A DNA stretch of 49,846 nt, taken from Caldisericota bacterium (GTDB lineage: Bacteria; Caldisericota; JANLFM01). A program made the translations under genes and the position numbers. The notes under the pieces are model-generated. The model searched no databases. It had not been told where the DNA came from and saw only the letters and a program-made list of their open reading frames with translations. Location: positions 16,490 to 66,335 of the forward strand of contig JANLFM010000010.1 of the NCBI GenBank assembly GCA_024655865.1, in the 5' to 3' direction. Each line of letters begins with the position of its first letter. Positions within the stretch are counted from its first letter, which is position 1. Shown here piece after piece: positions 1,798 to 15,267 of the stretch.

Positions 1798-4056
1798 ATG
1801 ATGGGCAAAATGATGGAGGACTCTCACGGTCAAGGATACTTTCTTATTCGCACCGAGAGATGGGGTGTGGGAGAAATTTGGGCTTTGCCCACAATAAAAT
1901 CCGATCTTCTTTCTGAAAATTCTAAAGCTGAAGACCTCCCATTTTTAAAATTTGATCCAGAGGCATTTAAAGACGGGTTTCCGTTAACACCTGACGAGAT
2001 TATCAGAAGAGGAAGCGCAAGGCTCCGGGGCCTTCTAAAGGAGAGTGATTTCCCTTTTATTTCTCCAACCAGGGATTACTCTGAGGGATGGCCTAAGTCC
2101 CATTTTGAATTTCTGGTGTACTGGGGCTTGCCGGGAGGAATCGTAGGGGGATACGAGCTTTACCCTCAAGTGGCAGCCTTTCTGAATGATTTTCTCCAAG
2201 CCAAACCCAATTGCCAGGTTATGGTTACAGGGCCGAAAAGGGCTTTATCAGCTATGGCACCTTTTCTTAACGGGAGAGAGGGAGTTCACCTTTTAGCTCC
2301 CAACGAAGTGGAGACATGGAAAGAAGACGATCCCTTAAGCATTGTTCTCATTCTGGATGCAGAGCAAGCTGTGAGTTTTGCCACCTCTTACTTTTTTGCT
2401 CTCCTTAAAATTCCCAAAAGGCTGGTTCTTGCTCAGTTCAATACCCGCGATTTTTTCCGAACCTCCCGCAAGGAGGCTTTATCCAAAATTTTCGGAGTCT
2501 CTTATTATTCGGTGATTTGGGATTACTGCATCCTTGACCCCAATTCTTTCTCGTTCTTCGAGCCCAAAAGCTATTCCTGGGTTGCTGAGCAGGCTTCCTC
2601 CGTGGATTTTGCGGAGTTCACTTTAGAGGATGACTCAGTCACGGAAACCAAAGTTCCTGGAACGTTTGTTATTCCCACAGAGCTTCCCGTCAAAGGGAGC
2701 CGCTCCTTTTTCGAGGATGCCGAGTACCTCGCTTTTCAGGAAGAGGATAAAGCAGAATTCGTCCCCTTCAGGAAATACTATCCGACATATTCGGACATGA
2801 GCCCTGCGCAGCTCAAATGGTATCTATACTGGAGGTCCCAGGCCAGAAGGGGCATGTTTCTTGACACCGACCTCTCTTATATCTTCCTCTATGTTTATGA
2901 GCTGCTTAACAAAATCGGAATATTTGAGCCATTGGAAGGTTTGCTCAAACTCAGGGAGTTATGGCTCAATTATCGGGAGAAATATCCTAAACTCGATCAT
3001 TATCTGGTGGACTGGATAGCGGATTACGCAATCATTTATTCCTGTCCTGTAAATCCTGTGGGCATTTACAAAGAAGCCTTGAAGTTTGGCTTCGTTAGAA
3101 ACCCGGATCTCCTTCTGGAAGAATTTCTCCAGGGTCCAATTGAGGAAATTCCCATTATTCTCTTTGAGGAGCTGTCTTTCTACAAGTTCCTCAAGAGCCC
3201 CTTTTTCCGAAAGGAAGGCAACCAAAATCTCGAATTAGAGCTCAAGAGGGCCCTCGCTAAAGTTGATAATTTTTTTCGGGAAAGGGACCACGTAGGAATC
3301 TTTGAGAAGTTCAGACCGCAAGCCAAGATAAGAATTCAGCGCTTTCCCTTTCAAGGTGCTATCTTTCGGAGTGATCACAATCAGATGATCACCCTGGGCA
3401 CGGCCTTTCCTTATTCTCGATACCCGCCACTTTGTAATTTTTTCACTTCCTTAGTCAAAGAGATCGAAAACAGGCTCCGGGAAAAGTTTCATTTTCCGGG
3501 GAGATTGGGAGGGTATGAACTTTCTCCTTTAGTGAGGAAGGTAATTAGAGAAGCTCTCAAGGAAGGCGCTCCTGAACCACTAGTCCCTGCGATTGAAGTT
3601 GACACCTGGAAAGTGAAGGAGCTCATCCGGGAGTCCGATGAAGTACGGGAACTAATTCAAAAATTCATTTCCCAGGAACACGGTATTGATGGTATTGAAT
3701 CCCCTGTTACATCCGGAGAAGAACCCTCCCCTTCTCATTCCATCCAGGAAACAGCGCCAGATCTTAAGGAGGTTCCTCCCGAATGGCGCCAGTTCGCATC
3801 GAAATTAAGGCCTTTTCAAGCTAAAACCCTCGCGGCCCTCCTTTCCGGGAAAAACACGGCCTCTCAAATCGTGAGCATATCCCGGGAAAATGCCTTAATG
3901 CCAGAAGCCCTACTGGATTCCCTGAACGAGCTATCGTTGGAGACCGTTGGGGATCTAATCGTCGATTGCTCTGTATCCCCACCCGTGCTCTTTGAAGAAA
4001 ACCGAGATATAATTAATCAATTAATTGCTCTCGTTTTAAAAGATGAACACACTTAG
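1798..4056 (+). CDS. TerB_N/TerB_C domain protein of a predicted helicase-associated defence module
   Basis: Encodes 752 residues, with no signal peptide or membrane span. Near residues 322-470 it carries the TerB_N-type signature: PTYSDMSPAQLKWYLYWR followed by TDLSYIFLYVYELLN. Near residues 661-745 it has a TerB_C-type ending, with W-R-F, LxxFQxKxLAALL, LxDSLNELSLETVGD and a final PPVLFEENRD. The first 300 residues match nothing I recognise; they include alternating hydrophobic strands and a VTGPKRALS segment. TerB_N/TerB_C proteins are known to be encoded next to P-loop ATPases and helicases in Ter-type stress or predicted defence loci, and that is the context here: the stop overlaps the next start by 14 bases. 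A TTG at 1780 is possible, but ATG 1798 has GAGGA five bases upstream. The molecular role is unknown. Confidence 0.75.
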   Translation: MMGKMMEDSHGQGYFLIRTERWGVGEIWALPTIKSDLLSENSKAEDLPFLKFDPEAFKDGFPLTPDEIIRRGSARLRGLLKESDFPFISPTRDYSEGWPKSHFEFLVYWGLPGGIVGGYELYPQVAAFLNDFLQAKPNCQVMVTGPKRALSAMAPFLNGREGVHLLAPNEVETWKEDDPLSIVLILDAEQAVSFATSYFFALLKIPKRLVLAQFNTRDFFRTSRKEALSKIFGVSYYSVIWDYCILDPNSFSFFEPKSYSWVAEQASSVDFAEFTLEDDSVTETKVPGTFVIPTELPVKGSRSFFEDAEYLAFQEEDKAEFVPFRKYYPTYSDMSPAQLKWYLYWRSQARRGMFLDTDLSYIFLYVYELLNKIGIFEPLEGLLKLRELWLNYREKYPKLDHYLVDWIADYAIIYSCPVNPVGIYKEALKFGFVRNPDLLLEEFLQGPIEEIPIILFEELSFYKFLKSPFFRKEGNQNLELELKRALAKVDNFFRERDHVGIFEKFRPQAKIRIQRFPFQGAIFRSDHNQMITLGTAFPYSRYPPLCNFFTSLVKEIENRLREKFHFPGRLGGYELSPLVRKVIREALKEGAPEPLVPAIEVDTWKVKELIRESDEVRELIQKFISQEHGIDGIESPVTSGEEPSPSHSIQETAPDLKEVPPEWRQFASKLRPFQAKTLAALLSGKNTASQIVSISRENALMPEALLDSLNELSLETVGDLIVDCSVSPPVLFEENRDIINQLIALVLKDEHT

Positions 4057-5365
4057 AATTCCAAGAAGAATTTCCACTGCCATATTGAACTCATTGCACT
4101 CCGGGGTGGTTCCGAGGATCGGCCTGGAGTATTTTGCGGTAGGGAGGAAGAAAGAGACTGCCATCCTTCTTTCAGATTTGGAGAACATTGCTCAGGGCGG
4201 TTCAGTCTTTCGCCTGATTGTAGGACGCTACGGTTCGGGCAAGAGCTTTATGCTTAACCTTTTGAGAAACCTGGCTCTTGACCAAGGCTTTGTTGTTATG
4301 GATTGCGATCTCTCCCTGGAAAGGCGCCTCTCAGGCTCGAATAGGGAGGGCCTGAATACCTACCGGGAGTTAATGCACAACCTTTCCCTAAGTACCAGGC
4401 CAGAAGGTGGAGCCTTACCAGTAATTTTGGAAAGGTGGATTTCTCAAATCCAGACTGAGGTGGCCAGGAAGACAGATTGCTCGCCCAATAGTCCTGCGTT
4501 CCAGGAAGCCCTGGAAAGGGAAGTAATTAAAACCGTGAACCAACTTGAGGGTATGATTCACGGATTCGATTTCGCTACGGTGATCAATGCCTATTGGAAA
4601 GGGTACCTGAGGGACGATGAGACCCTGAAGGGCAACAGCCTGCGCTGGCTAAGGGGAGAATTCGATTATCGCACTCAGGCAAGGGAAGCTTTGGGGGTGA
4701 GGGTAATTGTCGATGAGGATAGCTGGTATGATTATCTGAAGCTTTTTAGCCAGTTTGCAGTGAAAATAGGCTATAAAGGTTTACTTGTACTTCTGGATGA
4801 GGTGGGAAACCTTTATAAAATTAGCAACTCCCTTTCTCGGCAGAATAATTATGAGAAACTCCTGCACATTTTTAACGACACTACCCAGGGAAAGGCTTCT
4901 TTCTTTGGAGTTTTTCTGGCCGGGACCCCCCAATTTCTTGAGGACCAAAGAAGGGGACTTTACAGTTACGAGGCTCTGCGCTCGCGCTTAACTGATTCTC
5001 GAATTATTGACTCGGAACTGATCACTTCCACAGGGCCGGTGATAAAACTGGAGGTCTTAAGCCCGGAAGAGATTTTCGTACTTTTAACAAGGATTCAAGA
5101 GATTTACGCTTCCCATTATGGAATTTCGCCTATTCTTAAGAACGAGGAACTGGAGGTCTTTTTAAACGAGCTGGCTAAGAGGCTTGGTGCCAGGGAGTTT
5201 CTTACTCCGCGGGAGGTCGCAAGGGATTTTCTAGCCCTCTTGGATACCTTGAGGTTGAAACCAGAAATTAAATTTGAGCAGGTCATCCGCTCCTCAAATT
5301 TTAAACCTTCCCGACAAGAAAGTGAAAAAGAGGAAGGGGATGGCCTGACGGACATCCTTTTATGA
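4043..5365 (+). CDS. DUF2791 / BrxD-like P-loop ATPase
   Basis: Encodes 440 residues. The N-terminus reads RRISTAILNSLHSGVVPRIG followed by a clear Walker A, GRYGSGKS, at residues 61-68, and a Walker B-like LLVLLDEVGNLYK near residues 247-260. This arrangement (short leader, early P-loop, LDE-x-x-N-LY) is that of the DUF2791 family, which includes BrxD, the ATPase that partners the helicase BrxHI in some BREX phage-defence systems. The gene overlaps the TerB_N/C gene by 14 bases and its stop shares ATGA with the helicase start, so the three products are almost certainly made together. No PglZ, BrxC or methyltransferase is in the window, so this is not a complete BREX locus. Confidence 0.8.
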   Translation: MNTLRIPRRISTAILNSLHSGVVPRIGLEYFAVGRKKETAILLSDLENIAQGGSVFRLIVGRYGSGKSFMLNLLRNLALDQGFVVMDCDLSLERRLSGSNREGLNTYRELMHNLSLSTRPEGGALPVILERWISQIQTEVARKTDCSPNSPAFQEALEREVIKTVNQLEGMIHGFDFATVINAYWKGYLRDDETLKGNSLRWLRGEFDYRTQAREALGVRVIVDEDSWYDYLKLFSQFAVKIGYKGLLVLLDEVGNLYKISNSLSRQNNYEKLLHIFNDTTQGKASFFGVFLAGTPQFLEDQRRGLYSYEALRSRLTDSRIIDSELITSTGPVIKLEVLSPEEIFVLLTRIQEIYASHYGISPILKNEELEVFLNELAKRLGAREFLTPREVARDFLALLDTLRLKPEIKFEQVIRSSNFKPSRQESEKEEGDGLTDILL

Positions 5366-7554
5366 AGGAAAATCCATTTTTCAGGCTGGCTCCATTTATT
5401 CAGGAATTCATCTATACCCACGGATGGACGGAACTCCGGGCTATTCAAATTGAAGCCTGTAGGGTCATTTTCGAAACCGATGCCCATCTCCTTTTGGCCA
5501 CAGGTACAGCCTCCGGAAAAACGGAGGCTGCCTTTCTTCCGGTTCTGACTATCCTCTACAATGATCCCCCCGAGTCCGTGGGGGTCTTGTATATTGGACC
5601 CACCAAAGCTTTGATAAACGATCAGTTTATCAGGCTAAACGACCTATTGCAGGAGGCCAACATCCCGGTCTTCCATTGGCACGGAGACGTACCTTTAACT
5701 GAAAAGATGAAGGTTCTCAATAATCCTCAGGGCGTGCTCCAGATAACTCCGGAGTCGCTGGAGGCACTTCTGATGCATCGAAAAACCCAGCTTCAGAAGC
5801 TTTTTGGTGACTTAAGGTTTGTGATCATCGACGAAGTACACGTGTTCATGAATTCTGACCGTGGCCGCCAGATTCTGGCCCAGCTGGGTCGCCTGAAGGT
5901 ATACCATAAACAGGAGCCCAGGCGGATAGGTCTGTCGGCCACGCTCGGGGACTACTCGGAGGTAGAAGAGTGGCTCCGTTCAGGGAGCACGAGGCCAGTA
6001 ATCACTCCCAGGGTTAGTGCGGGAGAACAAAAGATTCGTCTGGCATTAGAGCACTTTTTCATTGCAAAGATGGAAAAGACGACGCGGGAACCCGAAAATG
6101 AACCAGTTGTCAATCCTTATTACGAGTATATTTTTGATAATACCTGGAAGCGTAAGTGCCTGATTTTTTCCAACTCGAAAGAGGAAGCCGAATCCATGCT
6201 CTCCTCTCTGCGCCTGGTGGCCAAGGCGAAAAAAGCTCCTGATTTCTACCATATGCACCACGGCTCTATCTCTGCTCCCTTAAGAGAAATGGCTGAAGAC
6301 GCCATGAGAAGCCCTTACCTTCCGGCAATTGTGGCTGCCACCACTACTTTAGAATTAGGCATCGATGTCGGTCCCTTAGAGAGGATAATCCAGTTAGAAG
6401 CTCCTTATTCCGTTTCCAGTTTTCTCCAAAGGTTGGGGAGGTCAGGAAGAAGGGGGAACCCTCAGGAAATGATCATGGTCTTCAAGGAGGAGGAACCCAT
6501 TGGGCACGAGATCCTTCCCCAACAGTTTCCTTGGATGTTGCTTCAGGGAATAGCCATTATCCAGCTTTATCTGGAGGAAAGATGGATAGAACCTTTGCGC
6601 CTAGTCCGTTATCCCTTCAGCCTCCTTTATCACCAGACCATGGCTATCCTTGCTTCCCAGGGAGAACTAAGATTCTCAGAGCTCGCGGAGAGGGTCCTCC
6701 AGCTTCCTCCCTTTGTTCACATTCCCATTGAGGATTTTAAGGAGCTGATCAGGCACCTGATTAAGATCGACCATATTGAACAAACTGAAGAAGGCGGCCT
6801 GATTGTTGGTCTAAAGGGGGAAGATGTAGTACGCAGTTTCCGCTTTTACGCAGTTTTTCCGGATGATGACGAGTACTCTGTTAAAGAGGGATCAGAAGAA
6901 ATCGGAAGCGTGGCTTACCCCCCACCACCAGGTGAGAGGTTTGGCCTGGCGGGAAAGACATGGGAAGTGCTGGATGTGGATCAAAAGCGCAAGATCATCC
7001 TTGTCAGGGGTGTTGAAGGAAAAGCCCTTACTACCTGGCCAGGGCCCTATGGGGTGATCCACACCAGAATAAAGCAACGCATGAAGCAGGTGCTCTTCGA
7101 AGACCTGGAATATAGCTACTTGCAGCCCAAAGCCCGAGCAAGACTCAAAGAAGCGAGAAACCTGGCCAGAATGGTAGGGTTGGAGCAAAACCACATTTTG
7201 GCCTTAGGGGGCAACACCTATGCGCTTTTTCCCTGGTTGGGAACCAGGTCTTTTCGCACGATCACCAGAGTAATAAAACATCTCCTGGCTTCGGAATTGG
7301 GTATTTCCAATGTTGAGGGGGAACCCTCTAATTACCTGATTTTTAAAATGGAAAAGGGAAATGTGGAGGAGCTGCGCCAGAGGCTGGTAGCCCTGGCAAA
7401 CGAAGGGATTGCCCCGGAGTCGCTCTTGGGAGGAAACGAAGCTCCCGTGATGCAAAAGTACGATCAGTACATCCCCGGAAAATTGCTTCGTAAAGCCTTT
7501 GCTTACGATCATCTGGACGTGGAAGAGTTTTCCCAGATCGTAAAGGGCTGGTAG
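5362..7554 (+). CDS. DEVH-box superfamily 2 helicase (Lhr/BrxHI-like)
   Basis: Encodes 730 residues. Helicase motifs are in order: Q-motif region near residue 29, motif I ATGTASGKTEA at 46-56, motif Ia GPTKAL near 79-84, motif Ib TPES near 129-132, motif II DEVH at 157-160, motif III SAT near 192, motif V TTTLELGIDVG near 327 and motif VI QRLGRSGRRG near 350. The C-terminal half (about 400-730) resembles the extended tail of Lhr-type helicases. It is predicted to unwind or translocate on nucleic acid using ATP. It starts with ATG overlapping the ATPase stop (ATGA). Pairing with a DUF2791 ATPase parallels BrxHI-BrxD. A repair role rather than defence is possible. Confidence 0.85.
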   Translation: MKENPFFRLAPFIQEFIYTHGWTELRAIQIEACRVIFETDAHLLLATGTASGKTEAAFLPVLTILYNDPPESVGVLYIGPTKALINDQFIRLNDLLQEANIPVFHWHGDVPLTEKMKVLNNPQGVLQITPESLEALLMHRKTQLQKLFGDLRFVIIDEVHVFMNSDRGRQILAQLGRLKVYHKQEPRRIGLSATLGDYSEVEEWLRSGSTRPVITPRVSAGEQKIRLALEHFFIAKMEKTTREPENEPVVNPYYEYIFDNTWKRKCLIFSNSKEEAESMLSSLRLVAKAKKAPDFYHMHHGSISAPLREMAEDAMRSPYLPAIVAATTTLELGIDVGPLERIIQLEAPYSVSSFLQRLGRSGRRGNPQEMIMVFKEEEPIGHEILPQQFPWMLLQGIAIIQLYLEERWIEPLRLVRYPFSLLYHQTMAILASQGELRFSELAERVLQLPPFVHIPIEDFKELIRHLIKIDHIEQTEEGGLIVGLKGEDVVRSFRFYAVFPDDDEYSVKEGSEEIGSVAYPPPPGERFGLAGKTWEVLDVDQKRKIILVRGVEGKALTTWPGPYGVIHTRIKQRMKQVLFEDLEYSYLQPKARARLKEARNLARMVGLEQNHILALGGNTYALFPWLGTRSFRTITRVIKHLLASELGISNVEGEPSNYLIFKMEKGNVEELRQRLVALANEGIAPESLLGGNEAPVMQKYDQYIPGKLLRKAFAYDHLDVEEFSQIVKGW

Positions 7555-7609: not shown

Positions 7610-7639
7610 TTGACACATACTGAGCTTCGAGTTTATAAT
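7610..7639 (+). promoter_or_regulatory. Sigma-70-type promoter for rplU-rpmA
   Basis: A perfect -35 box TTGACA (7610-7615) and a perfect -10 box TATAAT (7634-7639) are separated by 18 bases. The expected start of transcription near 7646 leaves a short leader holding the GGAAAGGAAGG ribosome binding site before the rplU ATG at 7666. This is the strongest consensus promoter in the window. Confidence 0.85.
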
Positions 7640-14541: not shown

Positions 14542-14550
14542 TTGAGAGAA

Positions 14551-15267
14551 ATGTATATTTCCTATTCCCGGCTTTCAACTTACCTTAGCTGTCCTTATCG
14601 CTATTACCTGCAATATGTGGAGGGCTTTAGGCCACCGGCAAACGCCTTGATGAGCTTCGGTAGTTCTCTTCACGCAGCCCTCAGGGATTTCTACTCCCAG
14701 GATAAGATACCTCCTACGTTAGATGACCTCTATGCTCATTATTACCGCAATTGGTTTTCCTTCGGATACAGAAGCCGGGAAACCGAAGCTAAATTTTTCC
14801 AGGAAGGGCTTTCCATCCTTGAGGAGTATTACGATAGGAATATAGACGAGTTTTGTCCAGCACTTTTTGTAGAGCGGAGGTTCCAGGTAGAGATCAAGGG
14901 CGTTCCCTTTGTGGGGGTGGTGGACAGGATTGATCGGATGCCCGACGGAACCCTCAGGGTGATTGACTATAAAACCTATAGAAAGAACGGAAGTGGCCTT
15001 CAGCTTATGTTATATCATCTGGCCCTGGAGAAGCTCTTCGGATACCCTCCAGAAAAACTCCTCTATTATTTTTTAAAGGAACAGGAGACCTCCTCGGTCG
15101 AGGTCAATGAAGAAGCTCTGGGGGAGGCGCAGGAAAACCTGGTTAGAATGAAGGAAGGGTTGGAGCGCGGCCTGTTTTTAAAGAACAAGGGCCTCAATTG
15201 TATAAGCTGTGACTTCCAGCGTTTCTGCGAATTAGAGGAAAACGGATACCCTGAGGAGAACCTCTAA
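14551..15267 (+). CDS. RecB/Cas4-like PD-(D/E)XK nuclease with iron-sulfur cysteines
   Basis: Encodes 238 residues. The nuclease core GVVDRIDRMPDG followed by VIDYKT gives the PD-(D/E)XK acidic and lysine residues, and QLMLYHLA matches the trailing motif of the RecB family. One cysteine near the N-terminus (SCPYRYYLQYV, residue 14) and three near the C-terminus (CISCDFQRFC) form the one-plus-three pattern that binds a 4Fe-4S cluster in AddB and Cas4. No CRISPR or addA gene is near, so it is a stand-alone member, probably for DNA end processing. The start at ATG 14551 is preferred over TTG 14542 because GAGAGGTGA lies at a better distance. It ends in a 4-base convergent overlap with the next gene. 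Confidence 0.82.
   Translation: MYISYSRLSTYLSCPYRYYLQYVEGFRPPANALMSFGSSLHAALRDFYSQDKIPPTLDDLYAHYYRNWFSFGYRSRETEAKFFQEGLSILEEYYDRNIDEFCPALFVERRFQVEIKGVPFVGVVDRIDRMPDGTLRVIDYKTYRKNGSGLQLMLYHLALEKLFGYPPEKLLYYFLKEQETSSVEVNEEALGEAQENLVRMKEGLERGLFLKNKGLNCISCDFQRFCELEENGYPEENL

Follow-up and report, generated by a model that had tools for sequence, protein, structure and literature searches.

A candidate divergent form of the Shango anti-phage system fixed on the chromosome of a Caldisericota family

Shango is a three-gene TerB/ATPase/helicase system that stops phages in Pseudomonas aeruginosa PA14 and was reported earlier still in Escherichia coli islands (PMC10250203); its mechanism is listed as unknown in a 2026 review (PMC12926258). 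The Shango helicase SngC has been grouped with BrxHI, DruE and DpdJ in a potentially distinct clade of defence helicases (PMC12278908). In BREX type 2, the ATPase BrxD has been proposed to load or activate the helicase BrxHI, and inactive Swi2/Snf2 lobes in PglZ, which has a shortened second P-loop domain, and in DndH have been described as fast evolving and proposed to act as invader sensors (PMC12839542).

We analyzed a three-gene locus in a 49,846-nucleotide stretch of Caldisericota DNA, referred to here in its entirety as the window. An earlier note on this DNA had described a run of three genes on the same strand with overlaps of 14 and 4 bases. The coordinates bear this out (Table 1): sngA and sngB overlap by 14 bases and sngB and sngC by 4 (ATGA). 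The order and spacing of the trio are repeated in a second species of the window's genus, so the layout is not due to chance. We infer co-expression of sngABC, and translational coupling between the genes is likely. The ATG start of sngA is preceded by GAGG at 1788-1791, within an open frame that begins at a TTG at 1780. The trio is flanked by ecfT-truA upstream and by rplU-rpmA-obg downstream. A TTGACA-18-TATAAT sequence ahead of rplU-rpmA-obg matches the sigma-70-type consensus at 12/12 positions, a consensus match only; rplU therefore probably has its own promoter, and the site suggests that rplU is expressed independently of the trio.

Table 1. Coordinates of the trio, its predicted domains and its downstream border within the window
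Feature	Coordinates	Strand	Description and evidence
sngA	1798-4056	+	752 aa; N-terminal extension, TerB_N and TerB_C, without TerB core; PADLOC SngA, Pfam
SNF2-like N-lobe remnant in sngA (predicted)	2080-2532	+	approximately residues 95-245; L081 homology, AlphaFold/Foldseek of L081, hhalign
TerB_N domain of SngA	2698-3078	+	residues 301-427; Pfam E = 3.2e-34
TerB_C domain of SngA	3568-3972	+	residues 591-725; Pfam E = 9.8e-10
sngB	4043-5365	+	440 aa BrxC/BrxD-family ATPase; Pfam, PADLOC, alignment
sngC	5362-7554	+	730 aa SF2 helicase, SngC/BrxHI type; PADLOC, alignment
Sigma-70-type promoter-like site	7610-7639	+	in the sngC-rplU gap; marks the edge of the unit and lies outside it

Analysis with Pfam confirmed the domains that the earlier note had called (TerB_N/TerB_C, DUF2791 ATPase and DEVH helicase). 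SngB matched BrxC_BrxD (formerly DUF2791) at E = 3.1e-154, and SngC matched the DEAD helicase family at E = 6.8e-28, with a DEVH motif and a weak Lhr winged-helix match besides. Alignment revealed intact motifs in SngB (GRYGSGKS and LLVLLDE) and in SngC (TASGKT, DEVH and QRLGRSGRR). All three Shango models of PADLOC matched adjacent genes in SngA-SngB-SngC order, at E = 6.5e-80 for sngA (residues 291-743), 2.7e-175 for sngB and 2.1e-244 for sngC, and the window SngA carries both TerB_N and TerB_C, as a Shango SngA should. Judged by its sequence, the trio is thus a divergent form of the Shango anti-phage system and not an unnamed module. The original description of a candidate defence or repair system was right about the ATPase-helicase-TerB unit and missed the named defence family to which all three models assign it. 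Its picture of a self-contained unit, in which a TerB adaptor accompanies the ATPase and the helicase and PglZ, methyltransferase and nuclease are all lacking, agreed with the Pfam and PADLOC results.

The proposed kinship to BrxD and BrxHI also held, with the PADLOC BrxD model matching SngB at 2.6e-51 and the BrxHI model matching SngC at 2.7e-121. These matches would be expected if the trio were a degenerate fragment of BREX type 2, that is, a BrxD-BrxHI dyad with an adaptor. We consider this extremely improbable: the Shango models score far higher, SngB reached 177.8 bits against the cut-off of 350 for the NCBIfam BrxD equivalog (NF033438), the 39 neighbours scanned contained no PADLOC match to PglZ, the PglX methyltransferase, BrxC or PglW, and the same three-gene unit was found again in distant phyla. 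Together these results contradict the BREX reading.

We also examined the conservation of the trio among relatives. All five genomes sampled from the window's family (5/5) have SngB, and the four proteins besides that of the window are 78, 59, 59 and 59% identical to it. Elsewhere in the phylum, a comparable SngB was missing from 48 of 49 genomes, the single exception being G045; three further phylum genomes outside the family gave weak BrxD-level matches (23-26%). The family sample comprises five genomes, several of them draft and fragmented, and in two (G002 and G004) sngC is split across contig ends. The trio directly follows truA in four of the five (G000, G001, G002 and G004); the G003 copy is on a short contig, with truA of that genome located elsewhere and followed by another gene. 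On the right, rplU borders the trio in only 2/5 genomes, both of the window's genus, and the other two genera of the family have different genes at this border. Outside the family, truA in G008 is followed by genes reading as rplM and rpsI, rplU in G016 has neighbours other than truA, and a truA-rplU adjacency was not found in the phylum members examined. There was therefore no ancestral pair for the trio to split, and an interrupted truA-rplU pair was dropped as an explanation; with its differing right borders, the trio sits at the junction of two separate blocks.

These results do not support the insertion between truA and rplU that the earlier note had suggested; the trio was already in the family ancestor or was acquired very early in the family. 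The note had named conservation of order and site in all relatives, as a housekeeping locus, as an outcome that would refute its proposal, and at the family level such conservation holds for gene order (5/5) and largely for the left border (4/5), while the right border is conserved within the genus and not in the other family genera. The 39 neighbours scanned held no defence island, the matches being limited to polA, a Cas4/PDDEXK-like gene and a mad3 model. A recent Shango cassette that landed by chance between truA and rplU would account for the absence of the trio from nearly all other phylum members, and canonical Shango is often carried on plasmids. This scenario is nevertheless very unlikely and is contradicted by family-wide conservation, since the trio is conserved and monophyletic across three genera and the divergence of SngB within the family (56-58%) matches that of obg (56-57%).

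Several other features were observed in these genomes. A lone PD-(D/E)XK (Cas4/RecB-like) nuclease gene lies approximately 7 kb from the trio at 14542-15264, after polA, mutM/fpg and a coaE-like gene (Pfam PDDEXK_1, 9.7e-37; PADLOC Cas4, 8.9e-16). The ecfT, truA and sngA genes of G002 and G004, and the stretches separating them, contain short peptides that recur, MTAPGN and AGGYQP among them (L020:7888-8097, L020:8942-9658 and L021); the pattern looks as if small DNA repeats had spread in these genomes, reaching even into SngA and SngB. Weak BrxC/D-like matches (26-34% identity) were identified on other small contigs of three family genomes (L011 and L014 in G003; L012 and L017 in G002; L013 and L015 in G004) and perhaps represent a second system.

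Phylogenetic analysis of SngB from 85 loci placed the five family members together (SH-aLRT 92) and united the cyanobacteria (100); 6 changes, the minimum, sufficed for the labelled phyla. A tree of SngB plus SngC, which leaves out the activity-tested PA14 and E. coli proteins, split a clade containing the window (31 rows) from a mobile Shango clade at 100/100; the grouping of the three family members that have complete copies of both genes received 100/100 as well. The partners of the window in its clade are systems of Paenibacillaceae, cyanobacteria and Desulfosporosinus, and the tree of this clade follows organism groups. The mobile clade comprises systems from Klebsiella, from Phaeobacter, Methylibium and Sphingobium plasmids, and from G045; by DNA similarity the E. 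coli form, present in 480 of 5,426 genomes, goes with the Klebsiella form. The patchy, defence-island or mobile context usual for Shango, which is not a defining feature, was not seen for the window trio, which is carried by 5/5 family genomes among housekeeping neighbours. The Shango of the Phaeobacter sp. G2 plasmid has genes for a PD-(D/E)XK nuclease and a UvrD-type helicase immediately after it (L223, 8488-11269), which may form a helicase-nuclease partner.

The clades also differ in SngA. Canonical SngA consists of TerB_N, TerB and TerB_C, and the TerB core (PF05099) was identified in four of five proteins checked (L022, L222, L223 and L225). It was undetected in the Methylibium protein of the mobile clade (L224), so we do not take the core as strictly defining for Shango. 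No TerB core was found in any of the five family SngA proteins or in any of the checked SngA proteins of the window clade. TerB_C is the part of SngA that is common even to a 423-aa cyanobacterial version (L057), which has coiled coils, TerB_C as its only TerB domain and, as its sequence indicates, probably an N-terminal membrane segment. In Nostocales (L057, L055, L074 and others), SngB is preceded by a protein of approximately 420-460 aa that is not a normal SngA.

Some members of the window clade carry an N-terminal extension of SngA spanning approximately 620 positions, which is common to the family, Desulfosporosinus, Desulfobacca, Saccharibacillus and some Paenibacillus and was found in 4/83 and 20/300 genomes of two wider searches. 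The window's genus retains only the second half, the first ~300 residues being gone, and many clade members lack the extension, among them a 525-aa Paenibacillus SngA and the cyanobacterial proteins; it is therefore not essential to the core mechanism. With five sequences, direct modelling of the window SngA gave a poor structure (pLDDT 55), and the fold assignment therefore rests on the Desulfosporosinus homologue (L081 region; 35 sequences), for which the AlphaFold model reached pLDDT 85.5. Foldseek analysis of this model identified Zorya ZorD (8qy7) as the best match (E = 1e-9), followed by Chd1, ISWI and the Sulfolobus SWI2/SNF2 core. The matches, at E = 1e-9 to 2e-4, were mostly SNF2-family entries, with many alignments covering ~190-220 columns at 4.4-7 angstrom, and their TM-scores were low because only one lobe matches. 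A sequence-profile search of the PDB with the extension gave no match. In an hhalign comparison, genuine SNF2 lobes lined up with the extension in the correct register and scored 29.7, against 14.0 when the profile was reversed and no more than 24.0 in any of 60 column shuffles; by itself this alignment is weak (probability 8%, E = 0.0044), and it was retained only after the shuffle controls and the Foldseek result. The P-loop GKT and the DExH motif are lost at the aligned positions in 35/35 extension sequences, the latter position reading LEAD, LEPD, IEPD or DAEQ. The modelled SNF2-like fold without catalytic residues therefore identifies the extension, in this part of the clade, as a predicted dead N-lobe of an SNF2 ATPase.

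Selection on the trio was analyzed by comparing the window with its congener, for which synonymous sites are near saturation and only the ranking of pN/pS values is meaningful. By this ranking sngB (0.174) and sngC (0.142) are under strong purifying selection, as constrained as obg (0.181) and polA (0.210). The value for sngA (0.368) was the highest among the 12 genes compared, and this fastest evolution within the trio is as expected of a sensor. Given its fixation in the family, a serious rival is that the trio is a housekeeping DNA-processing complex for replication-fork work, repair or chromosome maintenance, of Shango ancestry and not, or no longer, engaged in defence. The ribosomal/polA neighbourhood, the lack of a defence island, the constraint on sngB and sngC and the agreement of the clade tree with organism groups all favour such a role. 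So does the retention of sngC, at 54-58%, in Nostoc-type genomes, in several Nostocales far from sngB. On balance we lean against this role. Close SngB relatives were found in only 70 of 151 Paenibacillaceae genomes and, within the cyanobacterial order, in 33 of 147, which is too patchy for an essential function; the neighbours of the Paenibacillus trio are common only to close species groups and vary between them; and nearly all other phylum genomes manage without a comparable SngB. At 14 Bacillota loci, 14 PADLOC models were each matched by one of 147 neighbour proteins, in a scan without a random-gene control that we therefore take neither for nor against enrichment. A search of 50,697 phage records found no SngB relatives.

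Our preferred reading, to which we assign a probability of roughly 55%, is that the trio represents a variant of Shango fixed on the chromosome, with SngA reading DNA and SngB loading the helicase motor SngC, and that it likely provides standing innate immunity. SngA would serve as a DNA-reading adaptor that uses its dead SNF2 lobe together with the TerB_N region for binding to DNA or to a protein mark, while its conserved TerB_C end would dock SngB. SngB, a BrxD-like ATPase of the ORC/Cdc6-type AAA+ group, would then load or activate the helicase SngC on the DNA read by SngA, and SngC would unwind or strip the incoming DNA, so that replication is blocked without cutting. This adaptor-loader-motor arrangement carries over the BrxD-loader and dead-lobe-sensor ideas from BREX type 2 and PglZ/DndH. 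Since the trio lacks a nuclease, it is more likely that the system blocks incoming DNA through unwinding or stripping than that it cuts, and the fast evolution of SngA beside the slow evolution of SngB and SngC fits a sensor paired with a loader and a motor. The system may have become a permanent part of the chromosome in this family, most likely as standing innate immunity. A defence role is favoured by the family name, the validated relatives, the patchiness on a wider scale and the sensor-like evolution of SngA. Against it stand the fixation in the family, whereas defence systems are usually patchy and mobile, and the position of the mobile E. coli/Klebsiella form in another clade.

A broader and rather unlikely proposal is that the TerB-less clade (the window family, Nostocales, Paenibacillaceae and Desulfosporosinus) could be a DNA quality-control machine passed on vertically, in which the dead SNF2 lobe serves some members as DNA reader, and mobile anti-phage Shango its defence-specialised relative. 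If true, the two would be a housekeeping and a defence counterpart, captured on either side of the switch. Comparison across the clade, with its long retention, genes split apart in cyanobacteria and an inactivated SNF2 lobe in the fastest-evolving protein, points to SngB, SngC and the TerB_C end as the core parts and to the SngA N-terminus as the part that may sense invaders. With this clade, the question of whether a defence system can turn into a permanent component of the cell becomes testable, and tractable Paenibacillus and Nostoc strains carry its members.

Among known systems, ZorD, which the SngA extension matches best in structure, functions as an active SNF2-type helicase, whereas the extension has one lobe, without P-loop or DExH. 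The inactive lobes of PglZ and DndH resemble it in that they too have an SNF2-like fold, lack the catalytic motifs and lie N-terminally in a defence protein that evolves fast; unlike PglZ, SngA appears to combine the first (P-loop) ATPase lobe with a beta-rich region at its N-terminus, both fused to TerB_N/TerB_C. The BrxD-BrxHI dyad of BREX type 2, for which the loader-motor model was proposed (PMC12839542), has the same tightly linked ATPase and helicase families, whereas the window trio has a TerB adaptor in place of PglZ, methyltransferase, BrxC and PglW. Shango of PA14 and of E. coli/Klebsiella shares the gene order, the BrxC/D ATPase, the SngC helicase and the TerB_N and TerB_C ends, and the window SngB is ~41% identical to that of Klebsiella. 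In contrast to this patchy and mobile form, the window trio belongs to a separate clade, its SngA has a predicted N-terminal dead SNF2 lobe and no TerB core, and it is fixed on the chromosome in its family.
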